Of a stretch of 36,571 nucleotides of DNA, positions 28,574 to 35,549 are shown one piece after another. This stretch comes from Oscillospiraceae bacterium (GTDB lineage Bacteria > Bacillota > Clostridia > Saccharofermentanales > Saccharofermentanaceae), in assembly GCA_902794115.1 (NCBI GenBank), contig CADBGD010000047.1, positions 1-36,571 on the forward strand, written 5' to 3'. The notes under the pieces were generated by a model. That model was not told the DNA's origin and ran no database searches. It saw nothing but the letters and a program-made list of their open reading frames with translations. A program made the translations under genes and the position numbers. The stretch's first letter is position 1, and the number at the start of each line of letters is the position of its first letter.

Positions 28574-28600
28574 CGGCGCCCTTTCCGGTGCCGGCTTTTT
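28574..28600. terminator. Bidirectional intrinsic terminator
   Basis: CGGCGCC and GGTGCCG (one G-U pair) form a stem around CTTTCC. GCTTTTTC follows on the plus strand and GTTTTCTTTTTCC on the minus. It lies between the AEC gene and the convergent acetyltransferase gene, whose stop is at 28600. Confidence 0.85.
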
Positions 28601-29691
28601 CAGGAAACGTTTCCGGCCTTACCGGGCTCGGAAGTGGCATCCGGTGTGGTGCGGATCCAGTAGTTTTCGTTATAGATGTTGTCCAGTTCACTGAAGTAGG
28701 TCTGCTCGTAGACACCGCCATCCGCCAGGATCGTACGGCGGGAAGGCTCGTTATCGGTATGGCAGACGACCAGGACCTTGGTGTGTCCCAGGAGCTTGGC
28801 AAAGGGAAGGACCATGGCCAGCATTCTTTTTCCATACCCGCGGCGGCGCTCGGAAGGACGCACGGAATAGGAGATATGCCCGCCATGCTTGGACATATAG
28901 TCATTCAGCTCATGCTTGACCTCGATCATGCCAACCGGAATACCATCAGACATACGGAAAGCCACAAACACGGTGGAAGGCATGTAATAGGTGGGCGCGG
29001 TCTTTTTCGAACGCAGAGATTCGACAAACGCGAACCACTCGGCAATATCGTCAAAGGAATTAAGAAGCGCCGAACCGAAGATGTTCTCTTCGCCCCAGGA
29101 AGCATATTCGTCCCGGAAATCTTCCAGTTCATCTACGAAATCCAGAGAGGGCGCCGTCAGGATGATGGCATCTTCCGGTACATAAGCGATACATGTCATC
29201 GGCTCGGAAAAGTCGAATTCGTAGACTTCAAAAGGGGCTCCCGGCATCTGGCCGACAACAAAGAGAGTATTTCTCTCCGGGTAGTATTCGGCACCGCACC
29301 AGATGAAATCCACGCCGTTTTCGAAAGCCTCGTCGGAATAGAAACGGTGCTCTGTCAGAGAATTCAGGTTGAAAACGGAAAAACCGAAACGGTCACGGCG
29401 GAAAAGATAATAAAGATTTCCGTCTCTGTGGGAGATCATCTCACTTAAGGGATGGGCACAGTCAAGACAATCATAACTTAAAATCAGATCGTGATTGGGG
29501 GCAAAGAGGGAATAATGGGCGGCAAGACGCTCTTCGCCATTTACTTCTCCCTCGTAATACTCGCATAACAGGGAATAGCCGTTGGCAAAATAGCCTTCCT
29601 CCTTGGAACGACGGTTGGCGTCTTGGAAGAGGCTCTCGGATTGCTGTTTATACTGTTCCGCATATTCAAATGAAAATGCGACATTTCTCAT
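28600..29691 (-). CDS. GNAT acetyltransferase fused to an uncharacterised N-terminal domain
   Basis: The 363-residue protein has a C-terminal GNAT fold (about 230-345). It is marked by GHISYSVRPSERRRGYGKRML, with the acetyl-CoA loop RRRGYGKR, and by VCHTDNEPSRRTILADGG. The first 200 or so residues are unrelated and beta-rich, with SYDCLDCAHPLSEMI and APFEVYEFDFSEPM, reminiscent of uncharacterised bacterial proteins that display repeated beta sheets. The acceptor is unknown. The start at 29691 is chosen because the upstream codons overlap the -10 box of its own promoter; the RBS is weak. It diverges from the zinc-ribbon gene at 29809. Confidence 0.8.
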   Translation of the reverse strand: MRNVAFSFEYAEQYKQQSESLFQDANRRSKEEGYFANGYSLLCEYYEGEVNGEERLAAHYSLFAPNHDLILSYDCLDCAHPLSEMISHRDGNLYYLFRRDRFGFSVFNLNSLTEHRFYSDEAFENGVDFIWCGAEYYPERNTLFVVGQMPGAPFEVYEFDFSEPMTCIAYVPEDAIILTAPSLDFVDELEDFRDEYASWGEENIFGSALLNSFDDIAEWFAFVESLRSKKTAPTYYMPSTVFVAFRMSDGIPVGMIEVKHELNDYMSKHGGHISYSVRPSERRRGYGKRMLAMVLPFAKLLGHTKVLVVCHTDNEPSRRTILADGGVYEQTYFSELDNIYNENYWIRTTPDATSEPGKAGNVS

Positions 29692-29737
29692 AAGCGTACC
29701 TACTGCACCCCGTTTTTTCGAATAGGTTAAGTGTAGC

Positions 29738-29766
29738 ATACTAAGAGATAATTGACAATCTGACAA
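29738..29766 (-). promoter_or_regulatory. Sigma-A promoter for the GNAT gene
   Basis: On the minus strand TTGTCA (29766-29761) and TAGTAT (29743-29738) are 17 bases apart. It overlaps the opposite-strand promoter of the zinc-ribbon genes by 15 bases. Confidence 0.65.
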
Positions 29767-29780
29767 ACAAATTTTATATT
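29752..29780 (+). promoter_or_regulatory. Near-consensus sigma-A promoter for the zinc-ribbon genes
   Basis: A perfect TTGACA (29752-29757) lies 17 bases before TATATT (29775-29780), with the ATG at 29809 behind AGGAGG. It is one of the best-matching promoters in the window. The -35 overlaps that of the divergent GNAT gene, with a TGACAA direct repeat (29753-29758 and 29761-29766). Confidence 0.75.
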
Positions 29781-29808
29781 ATAGAGTGAAATAGGAGGGC
29801 GCGTTCTT

Positions 29809-32800
29809 ATGGAAATAGCATTTCACTGTCCGAATTGTCTGGCAGACCTGATATATGACGAATCCAAGAAATACACTTGCTGCTTCTGCCATACGGTTTT
29901 AGGACCCCGTGATGAAGTACGTGAGCTGGAAGGCGGTTACTATGTTGGTGACGCCTGGAATGAAAAAGTGTATCACAGTTTCCATTGTGAGACGTGCGGC
30001 AGTGACTTTATCGCCAAAGCTACCGGTAAACATGAGTGCCCGCTTTGCGCCGATACCAATGTGAAGGATAACGGCGAGATGATCGGTGCCATGCCGAGAA
30101 GAGCCATCCCCTTTACCCATACAAAAGCCCAGGTGGAAGAGATCTTCCTGGATTATATCCGCAATAATTCCGCTGTCGGCCGTACACTGGCAACAGAAGA
30201 GAACAGTGCGCTTTTGCATAAGGTATACGTACCGATCTGGTCTTTTACCTATGAAGTACTGGCTTATGCCCGCCTGACTGCAATGCTGCGGAATAAGGCC
30301 AACGATAATCACACGGTGATCATGGGAATTGACGTATCCGAGAGCCTTGCTCCGATCCGTTCTTCGCTCTCCCGTTTCCGTCAGAACTTCAAAGGAAGTT
30401 CTGCCAAAGAGCCGCAGGAACAGCCATCCGAACATACCACCGGTGGTGTGCTGTCCTGGCAGGGCATTCCTTTCGATGCATCGGGACTTCTTAAAGATAC
30501 CACTATAAATGCACTGCAGCCTTACGACCAGTCGAAGATGACGAAGCTGAACGATAAGATGCTTCAGGATGCGGCTGTTCTTGCGATCACCAAGGATCCG
30601 ATCACATCCATGCAGGAATTCATGGAGCGCATCAAGAAGTGGACCCGTCAGATGATCATGGACGCCCATTCCGATTCTTACGATATCGCCTATTTCCAGG
30701 ACCGTACCGATTATCCTCTGGGTATCGGCGAACTGGTGCTGTACCCGATCTGGTACATGAAGGGCGAATATATGGGCCGTGAGTTCTATTTTGCCATGAA
30801 CGGACAAAATGGCGAGATCGAGGCGAATATCCCGATGGCCAAGCAGACCGCGAAGAAGAATACGATCACGTATCAGCAGTACTGGGATAAGGAACGCTGC
30901 ACGGCGATGCAGGATACTCACTTTGAGTTCAACATTAAAGATCCGAATATTGAGATCCTCGATTATTCCTTCTTTGAAAAACCGAAGAATTCCCGCGTAA
31001 GCGCGGATGGCAGCAAACTTCCGGAAAAAGAAGACAGTGGTCTGGAACCGCTTCCTCCTCTTCCGGACGGAAACAAGGACATCTTCTCCGCCCGCCCGAG
31101 TCTGGATCCTGCTGTGGAAGCACTTCGTAAGCGTGATCCAAATAAGAAACTGACTAAAGAAGAAGAGCAGCAGCGTGCACGTGAAATGACAGCACGTCTC
31201 CGCGTGGCTGCCAAAGAGGCTCCGAAGGGAGATATGTCGGCTGCCGCGGAAGCACCCAGCTGGGCCCGTGCCGTGACACCGCCGCCGTCTGCCGCAACCG
31301 GCGCACGTCAGCCTGCCAGAACGAAGAAGCCTGCTCTGGATCGTCCGAGCGTTGCCTCTTCCGGAAATAAACCCCTGTGGGAAAGAACAGAGGAAGACGA
31401 GCAGATCACGCAGCCGAAGTCGATGGCAGAGAGAATCGCCATGGGCAATCAGGAGATCCCGGCTCAGAATGCACCGGATCAGCTGCCTCCAATGGGAATG
31501 GCCCCTATGGGCATGTCTCCGCTGGGCGGCACGAACCGCTCTTCCGAGGCAGAACCGGAGGTTGCTCTTCCTGATCTGAATACCAGAAATGATGTTATGG
31601 TCAACCAGGCCGGCATGGATCTGAATTCCGCGTTTGAGGCCATGATCCGCCGCACTTCGAGAGAAGAACCGAAAGAAGCGGAAGCATACGAAGTTCAGGT
31701 CAAGGATCCGGATTCCCTGGATTCTCTGGATGCTTACGAAGTTCCGATGCCGAAGTTTGAGCCGACCATGCCGCCTATCCCGCAGTATGACGATTTCGAA
31801 CCGCAGCCGGATCCGGTAGATGATTTCGAACTGCCGGAAGGTGAAGAAGTGGAGATCTTCAAGAAAGCTTCTTCCGAACCGGTAGTGGAAGAAACTGCAA
31901 AGCCGGAAGTGGAAAAGGAACCGCAGGTCGAGGAAGCAGAAATTCCGGAGGTCAAGGAGGCAGAAATTCCGGAGGTCAAGGAGCCTTCTGAGGGAGAAGA
32001 TGAGGAGATGATGGCGAACATCACATTCTCTTTTGCCAAGAAGAAGAAGCCTGCTTTCAGCGGCGAACCGACTATGTCCGGCACACCGATCCCGCGCCGT
32101 CCGGAAAAAGCACCGGAAGCAGAACGTGGCATGGCCATTATGAATTCGGAATACGATTCCGGTGTTCTGCCGGGAAGTGTCCTGAACCAAGAAGAAACTG
32201 ATGGCGAAGCCCGTGAGGTTGTTCCGAAGGTCAATGCGTCCGAGAATTATTTCGGCAGTGATAAGAATGACCGTCCGCTTGCTTTCCGTCCGGCCGCTCC
32301 GCTGGCACAGAAGCGTGGAGATGTGTACGTGGAAGAAGTGGAACACCATCCGGAACTGGATGAGAATAACCGCCCGGTAGCGACCCGTCCGCTGTCCCCG
32401 CTGGCCAGAGGAACTGAGTCTATGCCGAATCTGGAATATCTGGCTGAGAATCATCTGGATGACGATATTCATCAGATGCCGTCACTGGCTAAACAGCACA
32501 AGTGGGGAGAGATGCCGGAAGCGTCCGAGACACCGTCCTGGGCGAAGCCTGCCGGTGGAAGTGCTTCCCGTGGCGGAAGCCCGTTCCGTGCAAATAATTC
32601 CGACTCTCCGCGTGACCGCGTAAGAAGACCTTCCCGTGAAGAACTGATGGAGCAGGATCGGGAAAGAAATGATGAAGCTGCCGCCAGAACAGGCATTTCC
32701 CGTCCTTCTACATCCAGACCGGGATCGTCTCGTCCGGCGATTGCAGGAAGAGCACCGGAAGAAGAGCCGGCAAACCGTCCGGCATACCGTTCTGCGATCC

Positions 32801-33873
32801 AGCAGCCTCAGGGCCTGGCCTCCCGTCAGGAAGAGCCGGAAGAGGAAGTACGTCCGATCAATTCCGCATTCCGTCCGGCTAGACGTCCGGTGGAAGACGA
32901 TGAACCGAGAAGCGGCCGTCCGGGATCCCGCACCGCTTCCGAACGTCCGGCTGCTTCTTCTATGAAGAAAAAAGCAAATGAGAATGTCCCGATCTGGGAG
33001 CGTCAGCCGGAGAACGATGGACCGCTGACTCCGTGGGGCACACCTATGACAGCCTACCAGGATGAGCGGCCGAGAGGCTCACTCATGAAACCGGAAGGTC
33101 AGGTCATCGATGTAGAAAAGCCGAGAGAGAAACCGTCTCTTTGGAGACCTGACGGAAGCGCCAAGGAAGTTCTTCCGAGCGGACACGCTCAGGAAAGAGA
33201 AGTTTCTACTCCGAGAAGAGAACCTCCGCGTTCTATTCGTGAAGAAGGTGGCGCGGCTCCGAGAAGAGAACCTCCTCGTTCAATCCGTGAAGAGGGTGGT
33301 GCAGCTCCGAGAAGAGAGCCTCCGCGTTCGGTACGCTCGATCCGTGAGGAAGAAGCCAGCCGCCGTCATTCCGGCGTAGAAGTAGAAGTGGGTGCACCAA
33401 GAAGACCTGCTTCCCAGCCTGCTGCATCGCAGGAAGCACCGAGACGTTCCGCTTTCGATGCGGCTCCTGCGCGCGAAGAACCGGCACGTCCGCGTACTTA
33501 TGCACAGCGCCTTCAGATGGAAGAAGAAGAAAGAAGACGTGAGATCCAGAGTCCGTTTGTTCCTGCTGATAGACCGGCAAGCCGTCCGGGTTCACCGTTC
33601 GCTGCCCGCCCGGCAGAGGAAGAACCGGTAAGAAGATCTTACGATCCGGCAGAGTTCGAGGATAAGCCGGCTGTCGTATCCACATTGGATCAGCTTCCGG
33701 AACCTCTTGACGATGCAAGCGTTCATCGCCTGGCGAAAGATGACAGCGTTCCGCCGCTGGCTTTCGGTATCAACCCGATCCGTGAAGAACTGGCAGAGGG
33801 TGAGCGCCGGGCACAAAGAGCCATTCGTGATCTTCCGGATTACGACCCGGATGGACCGAGCCCGTTTAAATAA
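29809..33873 (+). CDS. Giant double zinc-ribbon protein with long disordered charged extension
   Basis: This 1354-residue protein has no signal peptide or membrane segment. Two Cys4 ribbons lie at the N-terminus: Cys7/Cys10 with Cys24/Cys27, and Cys60/Cys63 with Cys77/Cys80. A folded core follows (about 100-390) with YVPIWSFTYEV, SWQGIPFDAS, INALQPYD and YPIWYM, then YFAMNGQNGE. This core resembles the small Firmicutes proteins annotated as TFIIB-type zinc ribbon-containing. From about 395 on it is low complexity and rich in Pro, Glu, Arg and Ala, with scattered Trp motifs (PLWERTEED, PIWERQPEN, PSWAKPAGG) and two exact tandem repeats. It ends in DLPDYDPDGPSPFK, shared with the next gene. AGGAGG is about 10 bases before the ATG. 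Function unknown; a cytoplasmic scaffold is likely. Confidence 0.85.
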   Translation: MEIAFHCPNCLADLIYDESKKYTCCFCHTVLGPRDEVRELEGGYYVGDAWNEKVYHSFHCETCGSDFIAKATGKHECPLCADTNVKDNGEMIGAMPRRAIPFTHTKAQVEEIFLDYIRNNSAVGRTLATEENSALLHKVYVPIWSFTYEVLAYARLTAMLRNKANDNHTVIMGIDVSESLAPIRSSLSRFRQNFKGSSAKEPQEQPSEHTTGGVLSWQGIPFDASGLLKDTTINALQPYDQSKMTKLNDKMLQDAAVLAITKDPITSMQEFMERIKKWTRQMIMDAHSDSYDIAYFQDRTDYPLGIGELVLYPIWYMKGEYMGREFYFAMNGQNGEIEANIPMAKQTAKKNTITYQQYWDKERCTAMQDTHFEFNIKDPNIEILDYSFFEKPKNSRVSADGSKLPEKEDSGLEPLPPLPDGNKDIFSARPSLDPAVEALRKRDPNKKLTKEEEQQRAREMTARLRVAAKEAPKGDMSAAAEAPSWARAVTPPPSAATGARQPARTKKPALDRPSVASSGNKPLWERTEEDEQITQPKSMAERIAMGNQEIPAQNAPDQLPPMGMAPMGMSPLGGTNRSSEAEPEVALPDLNTRNDVMVNQAGMDLNSAFEAMIRRTSREEPKEAEAYEVQVKDPDSLDSLDAYEVPMPKFEPTMPPIPQYDDFEPQPDPVDDFELPEGEEVEIFKKASSEPVVEETAKPEVEKEPQVEEAEIPEVKEAEIPEVKEPSEGEDEEMMANITFSFAKKKKPAFSGEPTMSGTPIPRRPEKAPEAERGMAIMNSEYDSGVLPGSVLNQEETDGEAREVVPKVNASENYFGSDKNDRPLAFRPAAPLAQKRGDVYVEEVEHHPELDENNRPVATRPLSPLARGTESMPNLEYLAENHLDDDIHQMPSLAKQHKWGEMPEASETPSWAKPAGGSASRGGSPFRANNSDSPRDRVRRPSREELMEQDRERNDEAAARTGISRPSTSRPGSSRPAIAGRAPEEEPANRPAYRSAIQQPQGLASRQEEPEEEVRPINSAFRPARRPVEDDEPRSGRPGSRTASERPAASSMKKKANENVPIWERQPENDGPLTPWGTPMTAYQDERPRGSLMKPEGQVIDVEKPREKPSLWRPDGSAKEVLPSGHAQEREVSTPRREPPRSIREEGGAAPRREPPRSIREEGGAAPRREPPRSVRSIREEEASRRHSGVEVEVGAPRRPASQPAASQEAPRRSAFDAAPAREEPARPRTYAQRLQMEEEERRREIQSPFVPADRPASRPGSPFAARPAEEEPVRRSYDPAEFEDKPAVVSTLDQLPEPLDDASVHRLAKDDSVPPLAFGINPIREELAEGERRAQRAIRDLPDYDPDGPSPFK
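31936..31983 (+). repeat. 24-base perfect tandem duplication in the giant gene
   Basis: Two identical 24-base units (31936-31959 and 31960-31983) encode AEIPEVKE twice. They keep frame, so they lengthen the disordered region without breaking it. Confidence 0.9.
33211..33354 (+). repeat. 48-base tandem repeat, about three copies, in the giant gene
   Basis: Units begin at 33211, 33259 and 33307, each with CCGAGAAGAG. They encode PRREPPRSIREEGGAA twice and then a diverged copy (PRREPPRSVRSIREEE). The units differ by synonymous bases, so the array is older than the 24-base one. Confidence 0.9.
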
Positions 33874-33890
33874 TCTGGTTCTGTAGAAAT

Positions 33891-35450
33891 ATGGAGCGCG
33901 CCTATTTATGTCCAAAATGCAAGGCAGAAGTGATCCTCGATGAGGGATCTTCTTCTGCCTGCTGTTTTTGCGGGACTTCTTTTTCGGAAAACGATATTCT
34001 CCTTCGTCCCGATGCCGGCTTTTATATCCACGATCTAAAGCGCGAGAGAAAAGAAGTCATACGATGCCTGGAATGCGGAAAGGATATGGTAAAGGGAAGC
34101 CTCTCCTCAAATAAGATCTCCCACTGTCTTTATTGCGGAAGTGAGGAACTTATTTCAGACACTGGAGATGTGGCGGTGCCGGAAGAGGGTACCTGCATTC
34201 CGTTTTCCTGTAGCAGAAAAGAGGCGGAAACCGAGTACCTTTCCGCGATAAAGCGTGGTAAATTCCGGCTTCCGGGTTCCCATGCCAAAGCTTATGTGGA
34301 GGATATCACGCCGGCCTATGTTCCGTGCCTGTTTTATGACTATCACGTCTATGCCAGCGCGATCTTAAGTGTGGTTCCCTACGTCAAGTCTCCCCGGAAT
34401 ATCGGAGAGAAGATGCTGGGCGTTTTTCTTCTGAATGATTTTTCTCTGGAAAAGACCGATAATTCCACGACACCCTATGCGAAAAATGTGGGCGGGGAAA
34501 TGGCCTGGAAAGGCATTCCTCTTTGCGGAAGTACTGCGATTACCCGAGAGCGTTTCCTGCAGATATCGCCTATAAAGGTTTCGGCAAATGCATCGGAGAA
34601 AGAAACCACATCGGGTATGGAAAAGGAAGCGGTGATCCTGGGCCTTGACCGTCCGGCGTCTGAACTTTCGGATTATTTTGGAAGATTGATCCGCGACTAT
34701 GTAAAGGAATGCCTGATCACCACGAATCTGGATAACTTTGCGATCAGTTCGTTTGTGGATAGTACAGAGTATCAGCCGGCGATGAGTCAGCTGATCTACA
34801 TACCTGTCTGGATGGTAAAGATCAGAAAGAAAGACCACTTTATCAGCTGGTATATGAATGCAATCTCCGGCCAGAGTTGTGTTCTGGAGACGGAAAGTGT
34901 CACGGAAGCCCCTCTTCCGCAGCAGGATCAGTCCCTGAAGAGCATGAGTAAAAAGAAGATCAAGAAGTTTACGATCGATGATTTCGGCGGAGAGGACCGG
35001 CTGGTAAATTACCGGACATACATGAACGATAACATGGCCTCGGCCATCACTGCAGAGATGACCCTGAATGAGATGTCTGCGGATAAGAGCCTTCTGCATC
35101 TGGAAAAAGTGACGAGAAGAAGTGCCGTGATCGCGGTGCCGGAAATTAAGGAAGCGTTTCAGGTGGAGGCGGAAAAAGCACTGGAGGAGAGTAAGCTGAC
35201 TCCGATCCCCAGCGCACCGGTACCCCTTCCCGCAGAGCATTCCCCGCTTTATAACATGAAAGCGGAAGCGATGGAAAGATCTTTGGGAAGAGGTCAGAGA
35301 CTTCCTCAGAGACCGGTAAACCGCCGGGTCGGAAACGAAGAGCAGTTCGACCACAGTGACGACACTCATGAAAGTCTGGCGGTCGAAATCGGATTGTCGG
35401 ATCTTCCGGAATTCGATCCAAACGGACCGAATCCGTTCCGGAAAAACTGA
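33891..35450 (+). CDS. Double zinc-ribbon paralogue of the preceding giant protein
   Basis: The 519-residue protein repeats the architecture of its neighbour. The first ribbon is at the same positions (Cys7/Cys10 with Cys24/Cys27, in CPKC and CCFC) and the second at Cys59/Cys62 with Cys79/Cys82. The core shows MAWKGIPLCG, YIPVWMVK and YMNAISGQS, matching WQGIP, YPIWYM and AMNGQNG of the larger protein. It lacks the long disordered extension but ends in the same tail, DLPEFDPNGPNPFRKN. No membrane segment is seen. It starts 17 bases after the previous stop with no clear Shine-Dalgarno (CTGTAGAAAT before ATG), so translation may depend on coupling. Function unknown. Confidence 0.85.
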   Translation: MERAYLCPKCKAEVILDEGSSSACCFCGTSFSENDILLRPDAGFYIHDLKRERKEVIRCLECGKDMVKGSLSSNKISHCLYCGSEELISDTGDVAVPEEGTCIPFSCSRKEAETEYLSAIKRGKFRLPGSHAKAYVEDITPAYVPCLFYDYHVYASAILSVVPYVKSPRNIGEKMLGVFLLNDFSLEKTDNSTTPYAKNVGGEMAWKGIPLCGSTAITRERFLQISPIKVSANASEKETTSGMEKEAVILGLDRPASELSDYFGRLIRDYVKECLITTNLDNFAISSFVDSTEYQPAMSQLIYIPVWMVKIRKKDHFISWYMNAISGQSCVLETESVTEAPLPQQDQSLKSMSKKKIKKFTIDDFGGEDRLVNYRTYMNDNMASAITAEMTLNEMSADKSLLHLEKVTRRSAVIAVPEIKEAFQVEAEKALEESKLTPIPSAPVPLPAEHSPLYNMKAEAMERSLGRGQRLPQRPVNRRVGNEEQFDHSDDTHESLAVEIGLSDLPEFDPNGPNPFRKN

Positions 35451-35506: not shown

Positions 35507-35549
35507 AACAAAGTGCGATGCAGTTTTCACTGCACCGCACTTTGTTTTT
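35507..35549. terminator. Strong intrinsic terminator after the zinc-ribbon genes
   Basis: AACAAAGTGCG-A-TGCAG and CTGCA-C-CGCACTTTGTT form an 11+5 bp stem with one mismatch and a TTTTCA loop, ending in TTTTTC. It is clearly a terminator for the plus-strand genes. On the minus strand the T-run is weaker but it could also serve the beta-glucosidase gene. Confidence 0.85.

Follow-up and report, generated by a model that had tools for sequence, protein, structure and literature searches.

Analysis of a 36,571-nucleotide (nt) stretch of DNA from an Oscillospiraceae bacterium of the family Saccharofermentanaceae (GenBank assembly GCA_902794115.1, contig CADBGD010000047.1; hereafter the window) revealed that two adjacent genes for double zinc-ribbon proteins go back to a tandem duplication, confined to the genus, of a YdjG-like protein that carried a C-terminal tail. 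The long paralogue (29809-33873; 1354 amino acids (aa)) is followed after 17 nt by the short one (33891-35450; 519 aa), and both proteins end in the motif DLPxxDPxGPxPF (coordinates are those of the window and refer to its forward strand unless otherwise noted). Judged by sequence comparison, the core that they share is a divergent member of the widespread YdjG-like kind, which is normally membrane-anchored; YdjG of Bacillus subtilis was compared by its published description. We are highly confident of this family assignment and of the history of the pair. A fuller reading, in which the duplicated soluble proteins would act as adaptor and scaffold for a common tail partner, with SPFH/TPM modules as the likeliest setting, appears to us evenly balanced between right and wrong.

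The two open reading frames (ORFs) and their N-terminal double Cys4 modules, reported in a preliminary description of the window, were borne out, and all eight zinc cysteines proved to be invariant among orthologues of the long and short proteins alike. The first ribbon (29827-29889 in the long and 33909-33971 in the short gene) has, as described, identical spacing in both (C7-x2-C10-x13-C24-x2-C27), and that of the second ribbon differs slightly (C60/C63/C77/C80 at 29986-30048 in the long vs C59/C62/C79/C82 at 34065-34136 in the short gene). Ribbons and core domain together occupy residues 1-345 of the long protein (29809-30843), based on homology to the short core and to the YdjG-like family, and residues 1-335 of the short protein (33891-34895), again based on homology; AlphaFold2 models were used in both cases. 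The proposed paralogy was confirmed by BLASTP (E = 1e-25, 23% identity over residues 1-347, with the tail as a separate match) and by hhalign of the two core profiles (100%, E = 4e-43, 321 columns). Two of the core motifs described previously are present, namely W[QK]GIP (residues 217-221 in the long and 206-210 in the short protein) and [YI]PxW (312-315 and 304-307), whereas the third, given as MNxxxGQ, was out of register: the aligned residues are MNGQNGE and MNAISGQ, the counterpart of a generic MNGQTGK loop in the wider family.

Structure prediction by AlphaFold2 (residues 1-395 of the long protein, mean predicted local distance difference test (pLDDT) score 79; whole short protein, mean pLDDT 73) suggested an alpha/beta core with long strands. 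Far from having unrelated folds, the two cores are homologous and show the same predicted order of secondary-structure elements (long/short): strands 137-160/140-163 and 207-223/196-212, helix 264-287/256-279, and further strands 291-298/283-290, 306-321/298-313 and 324-331/316-323. It should be noted that the two models are not fully independent, because both input alignments mixed long and short paralogues. No significant match to either model was found in the PDB with Foldseek or VIA-align, which does not show that the fold is new, and Pfam and NCBIfam offered no usable family for either protein. At the profile level, the long protein matched generic zinc-ribbon proteins of the genus (360-430 aa; hhalign 99.9%), the short protein matched zinc-ribbon proteins from SPFH-ZnR-TPM operons (99.7%), and YdjG-like matches in the window genome numbered 7 and 12 with two queries. 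As a separate observation, Foldseek comparison of the long-core model (m791b8bef66f9) with predicted viral structures returned two matches with E < 0.001 and a TM-score of about 0.37 on the model, both of them giant-virus proteins named DnaJ-like subfamily C member 3 (Yasminevirus and Edafosvirus); it is possible from these models that giant viruses carry a core related to the long one.

The evolutionary history of the pair was examined in 23 genomes of the genus, 188 of the order, 391 of the class and 199 of the phylum. Both genes are kept in all 23 genus genomes (split over contigs in a few), 13-115 nt apart in the complete loci compared, and the 18 loci examined have the same gene order and the same neighbours, a GNAT gene and a GH1 glycosidase gene. 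Records matching the pair are metagenome-assembled genomes of rumen and gut Clostridia, with one row assigned to Saccharofermentanaceae. Of the two cores, the long one is slow to evolve, with a mean pairwise identity of 78% vs 45% for the fast-evolving short one. A tree was built from 37 cores; the long and short proteins form one clade in it (support 100/99), and a branch with 99/99 support has every tail-bearing protein on the same side. The tail also ends membrane-anchored relatives in two sister genera. Given this and the side of the branch shared by tail-bearing proteins, the tail existed before the duplication, and a single origin is probable. Thus, the shared tail, previously regarded as unusual for such a pair, was inherited by both copies from one ancestor through tandem duplication.

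The fixed chromosomal place of the pair in the 18 loci and its presence in all sampled species of the genus amount to core-genome behaviour, which argues against an anti-phage defence or mobile-element pair. That explanation could draw on a weak PADLOC candidate match (PDC-S64, E = 4e-4) to the ribbons of the short protein and on a faint match in one short phage record. Neither match extends beyond the ribbons or the N-terminal part, relatives of the long core were absent from viral contigs, and scans with PHROGs and PADLOC gave weak ribbon-level or marginal matches only, so that we consider a defence role very improbable.

The tail reads DLPDYDPDGPSPFK in the long protein (residues 1341-1354, 33829-33870) and DLPEFDPNGPNPF in the short one (35400-35438), the C-terminal sequence of the latter being DLPEFDPNGPNPFRKN (residues 504-519); one to ten residues may follow the motif. 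Orthologues keep the tail, and it is under strong constraint: the ratio of nonsynonymous to synonymous polymorphism (pN/pS) is 0.17 in the long tail vs 0.50 upstream and 0.12 in the short tail vs 0.48 upstream, and the short tail is 84% identical among orthologues vs 45% for the short core. When DPxGPxPF was searched as a DNA pattern, two genic matches per genus genome were found; a third match in G015 is a contig duplicate, and the stray matches in G000 and G021 do not fall at the C-terminus of an ORF. In G012, the long gene (L158, 7435-10884) includes an assembly-gap run of undetermined residues and is broken off, so that its tail is readable only past the gap. A stricter degenerate DNA pattern for P-x-[FY]-D-P-x-G-P-x-P-F matched 27 of the 188 order genomes, all within the tail-bearing subfamily or its remnants, as against none of the 188 with the reversed pattern as control. 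In the class and phylum sets, the same pattern was found in the window genome only. Thus, the shared tail is real and beyond chance, and the search for other proteins ending in it led only to this subfamily and remnants of it. Resemblance to the SSB tip or to NPF/DPF motifs was also weighed for the tail and was not upheld, since the motif does not reach the very last residue.

Outside the genus, the tail ends a protein of 529-538 aa in G025 and G029. In G026, it ends a two-helix ORF of 183 aa that overlaps a zinc-ribbon ORF, in G030 it is found on a core-deleted remnant, and G029 also has a broken second copy. The tail-bearing genes of the sister genera therefore appear to be decaying, with core and tail in overlapping frames, the core lost, or one copy broken, respectively (decay loci: L088, 5380-7417; L132, 640-1620; L128, 1-520).

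A short, C-terminal and strongly constrained sequence might alternatively be a signal for degradation or sorting rather than a dock for a functional partner. ssrA is an example of a degron that is read at its end, and the tail is unlike such degrons. The residues that may come after the motif, together with the restriction of the tail to one protein subfamily, where a general signal would be expected on other proteins too, make such a signal quite improbable. Another explanation is that the tail clasps the core of the same protein or of its twin, giving a long-short hetero-complex in which a third partner is unnecessary. This would fit the occurrence of the tail only on proteins with this core (in G026, beside an ORF with the core) and the invariable adjacency and co-orientation of the two genes in complete loci. 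On the other hand, the short core is much less conserved than the tail that it would bind, and a tail site on it would therefore need to be a small conserved patch; in addition, the single-copy relatives in G025 bear the tail without any twin, and the model of the short protein does not place the tail confidently. A clasp of this kind therefore seems unlikely to us, though it deserves to be kept in mind.

Both copies also differ from their relatives in hydrophobicity. Peak 19-residue hydropathy is 0.93 in the long and 1.26 in the short protein, as against 2.15-2.53 in the sister-genus relatives, and the hydropathy scan found no strongly hydrophobic segment and no C-terminal transmembrane segment in either. 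The membrane helices of these relatives, located between core and tail, align to a gap in the pair. Thus, the ancestor was probably membrane-anchored, and both copies probably became soluble by losing the helices; the pair appears to show how a membrane protein family can yield soluble proteins with a retained tail.

The solubility of both copies and weak matches of the ribbons to RNA polymerase subunit P and TFIIB might point to transcription-related factors, whose TFIIB-like ribbons would touch RNA polymerase or nucleic acid and whose tail would recruit a transcription component. A resemblance to TFIIB-type zinc-ribbon proteins had indeed been suggested for the core. It holds only for the ribbons: the matches span one ribbon, and the core exceeds a TFIIB-type ribbon and belongs to the YdjG-like kind. 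Moreover, Zn_Ribbon_TF scored 9.6 bits with the short protein, against a curated cut-off of 29, and did not match the long one. Neither protein had a Pfam match to cyclin-like repeats after the ribbon, and no cyclin-like or DNA-binding domain was matched in Pfam or NCBIfam. Considering also that the closest relatives are membrane-anchored and located with SPFH and TPM genes, we find a role in transcription improbable.

In the long copy, about 930 low-complexity residues separate core from tail. This predicted disordered linker (residues 400-1335, 31006-33813; 13% proline, 34% charged residues) is mostly unconserved and contains conserved islands, which read PSWAKAV, KPLWER, TFSFAKK, WGEMPE..ETPSWAKP and VPIWER..PWG across orthologues and have pN/pS values of 0.12-0.31 each vs 0.51 for the whole linker. 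In the window protein, these correspond to the PxW motifs PSWARAV (31249-31275) and KPLWERTE (31369-31392), both kept in all orthologues, to the box ANITFSFAKKKKP (32011-32049), in which TFSFAKK is nearly invariant among orthologues, and to two further conserved PxW motifs, WGEMPEASETPSWAKP (32500-32550; pN/pS 0.12) and VPIWERQPENDGPLTPWG (32986-33039). In all seven orthologues tested, PxW is more frequent than in composition-preserving shuffles, with p = 0.006 in the window protein and ≤0.0002 in the others, and the linkers of some species have extra copies.

On the basis of these results, the short copy could be a simple soluble adaptor, and the long copy would be a multivalent scaffold because its linker carries several conserved PxW motifs. 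DLPxxDPxGPxPF would be a docking motif; since it was inherited once from a common ancestor, both proteins would probably dock the same putative partner. Docking had also been proposed in the preliminary description, and it is the natural reading of a tail so conserved and constrained in orthologues, with the binding itself and the scaffold role being inferred. We give this adaptor-scaffold mechanism with a shared docking tail slightly under an even chance. The likeliest setting would be the PspA-free SPFH/TPM (YdjI/YdjH-like) membrane-maintenance modules, as accompanied by YdjG-like proteins elsewhere in the order. A search of 22 genus genomes for YdjI-type SPFH proteins was positive in every one, and a zinc-ribbon gene is paired with a TPM gene in the window genome. 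Because the setting is deduced from the family, we put it forward tentatively and regard it as doubtful for the pair itself.

Several observations weigh against the reading of the pair as adaptor and scaffold in such modules. PspA was absent from all 22 genus genomes searched (B. subtilis and others served as positive controls), and the published pathway is therefore not transferable as a whole. No direct link was found between the pair and SPFH or TPM genes: its neighbourhood contains no pspA, TPM (ydjH) or SPFH (ydjI) gene and has the GNAT and GH1 genes as flanks instead. The conserved third partner that had been expected in the neighbourhood was not found either, no partner gene travelling with the pair in the flanks of the 18 loci. 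Instead of a third partner, the tail could bind a core, either that of its own protein or that of the twin, and the short-protein model, with a mean pLDDT of about 50 in the tail, neither places it on the core nor excludes this. Finally, as the remnants in G029 and G030 demonstrate, sister genera can lose genes that bear the tail.

A broader extension of the adaptor-scaffold reading would be a docking code made up of the tail and the repeated PxW motifs. With it, the soluble scaffold and its short twin would gather several modules of zinc-ribbon proteins and their membrane partners, together with SPFH proteins, into a membrane-maintenance assembly that lacks PspA and has a dedicated putative tail receptor; we consider this rather unlikely. 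YdjG-like proteins are numerous in these Clostridia, and almost no literature on them was found outside B. subtilis. The pair supplies a defined peptide and repeated linker motifs that can serve as bait, so that the connections of zinc-ribbon proteins become directly testable.

With regard to expression, the two genes look like a putative operon. The best-scoring promoter site is a sigma-70-like match, TTGACA-17-TATATT (29752-29780; 11/12, a consensus match only), 29 nt upstream of the start codon; six promoter-type consensus matches were found in the region, compared with 4.9 expected from shuffles. A ribosome-binding site, AGGAGGG, could be read 9 nt upstream of the ATG (29793-29799), and a strong terminator-like hairpin of 18 pairs was computed between the pair and the converging GH1 gene (35507-35546, no strand assigned). 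On the other side, the gene for the GNAT-domain protein (28600-29766, reverse strand) is divergent from the pair and adjoins it in the 18 loci; the N-terminal ~230 residues of this protein matched no Pfam family.

Comparison with known systems places the pair as an undescribed variant of a known, little-studied kind of protein, and not as the undescribed system that had been proposed. YdjG of B. subtilis is described as combining two zinc ribbons with a membrane segment and with an NTF2-like domain related to YpeB (PMC11237479); it is membrane-integral, is encoded in an operon with pspA, ydjH and ydjI, and is required, together with YdjH, for YdjI and PspA to reach the membrane (PMC8581546). 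Like YdjG, the paired proteins begin with two zinc ribbons and continue with one conserved domain, and their relatives lie in SPFH-ZnR-TPM operons of the same composition. In contrast to YdjG, the pair has no membrane helix and no pspA-ydjHI operon, its tail was not seen elsewhere, and the long copy has a disordered linker. SPFH-zinc ribbon-TPM operons of other families of the order (L217, 5001-8284; L218, 4650-7980; L219, 2029-5156; L220, 5509-9052) show the order ydjI-ydjG-ydjH without pspA, and the SPFH and TPM domains were confirmed for L218. The zinc-ribbon proteins of such operons (in G039, G040, G044 and G047) are homologous to the short protein across both ribbons and core, whereas they are shorter (354-384 aa), have a membrane helix soon after the core and lack the DLPxxDPxGPxPF tail.

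Closer at hand, the genus has a second, numerous zinc-ribbon subfamily that ends in FxFxKKRQ (for example, L098, 956-3234; L096, 7980-9632; L097, 52-1763; and L178-L196). In the window genome, FxFxKKRQ was matched seven times, each time at the C-terminus of a zinc-ribbon protein. FxFxKK with other endings was no commoner than the reversed control, and in the long paralogue the box is internal and has the sequence FSFAKKKK, so a link through this box between the long paralogue and the other zinc-ribbon proteins is suggestive only. In the loci examined, the FxFxKKRQ genes nearly always lie directly before a gene for a small one-helix membrane protein, which has an SN..GDS-like motif past the helix and sometimes a disordered tail ending in RPLWEN..DDFSDF; the two genes look like an undescribed module. 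RPLWEN in this partner resembles KPLWER and PIWER of the long paralogue. In-frame P[LI]WE[RN]-like sites occur in five places only, of which the long paralogue has two, a zinc-ribbon partner one and other ORFs the remaining two; these are too few for proof, and a motif common to the long linker and the small membrane partners is possible. The FxFxKKRQ proteins share a homologous core with the pair, but they and their partners are two membrane-anchored proteins with a C-terminal FxFxKKRQ and no DLPxxDPxGPxPF tail. The single-copy relatives in G025 and G029, encoded next to alaS, have the same core and tail as the pair and differ from it in being one gene with membrane helices between the two.

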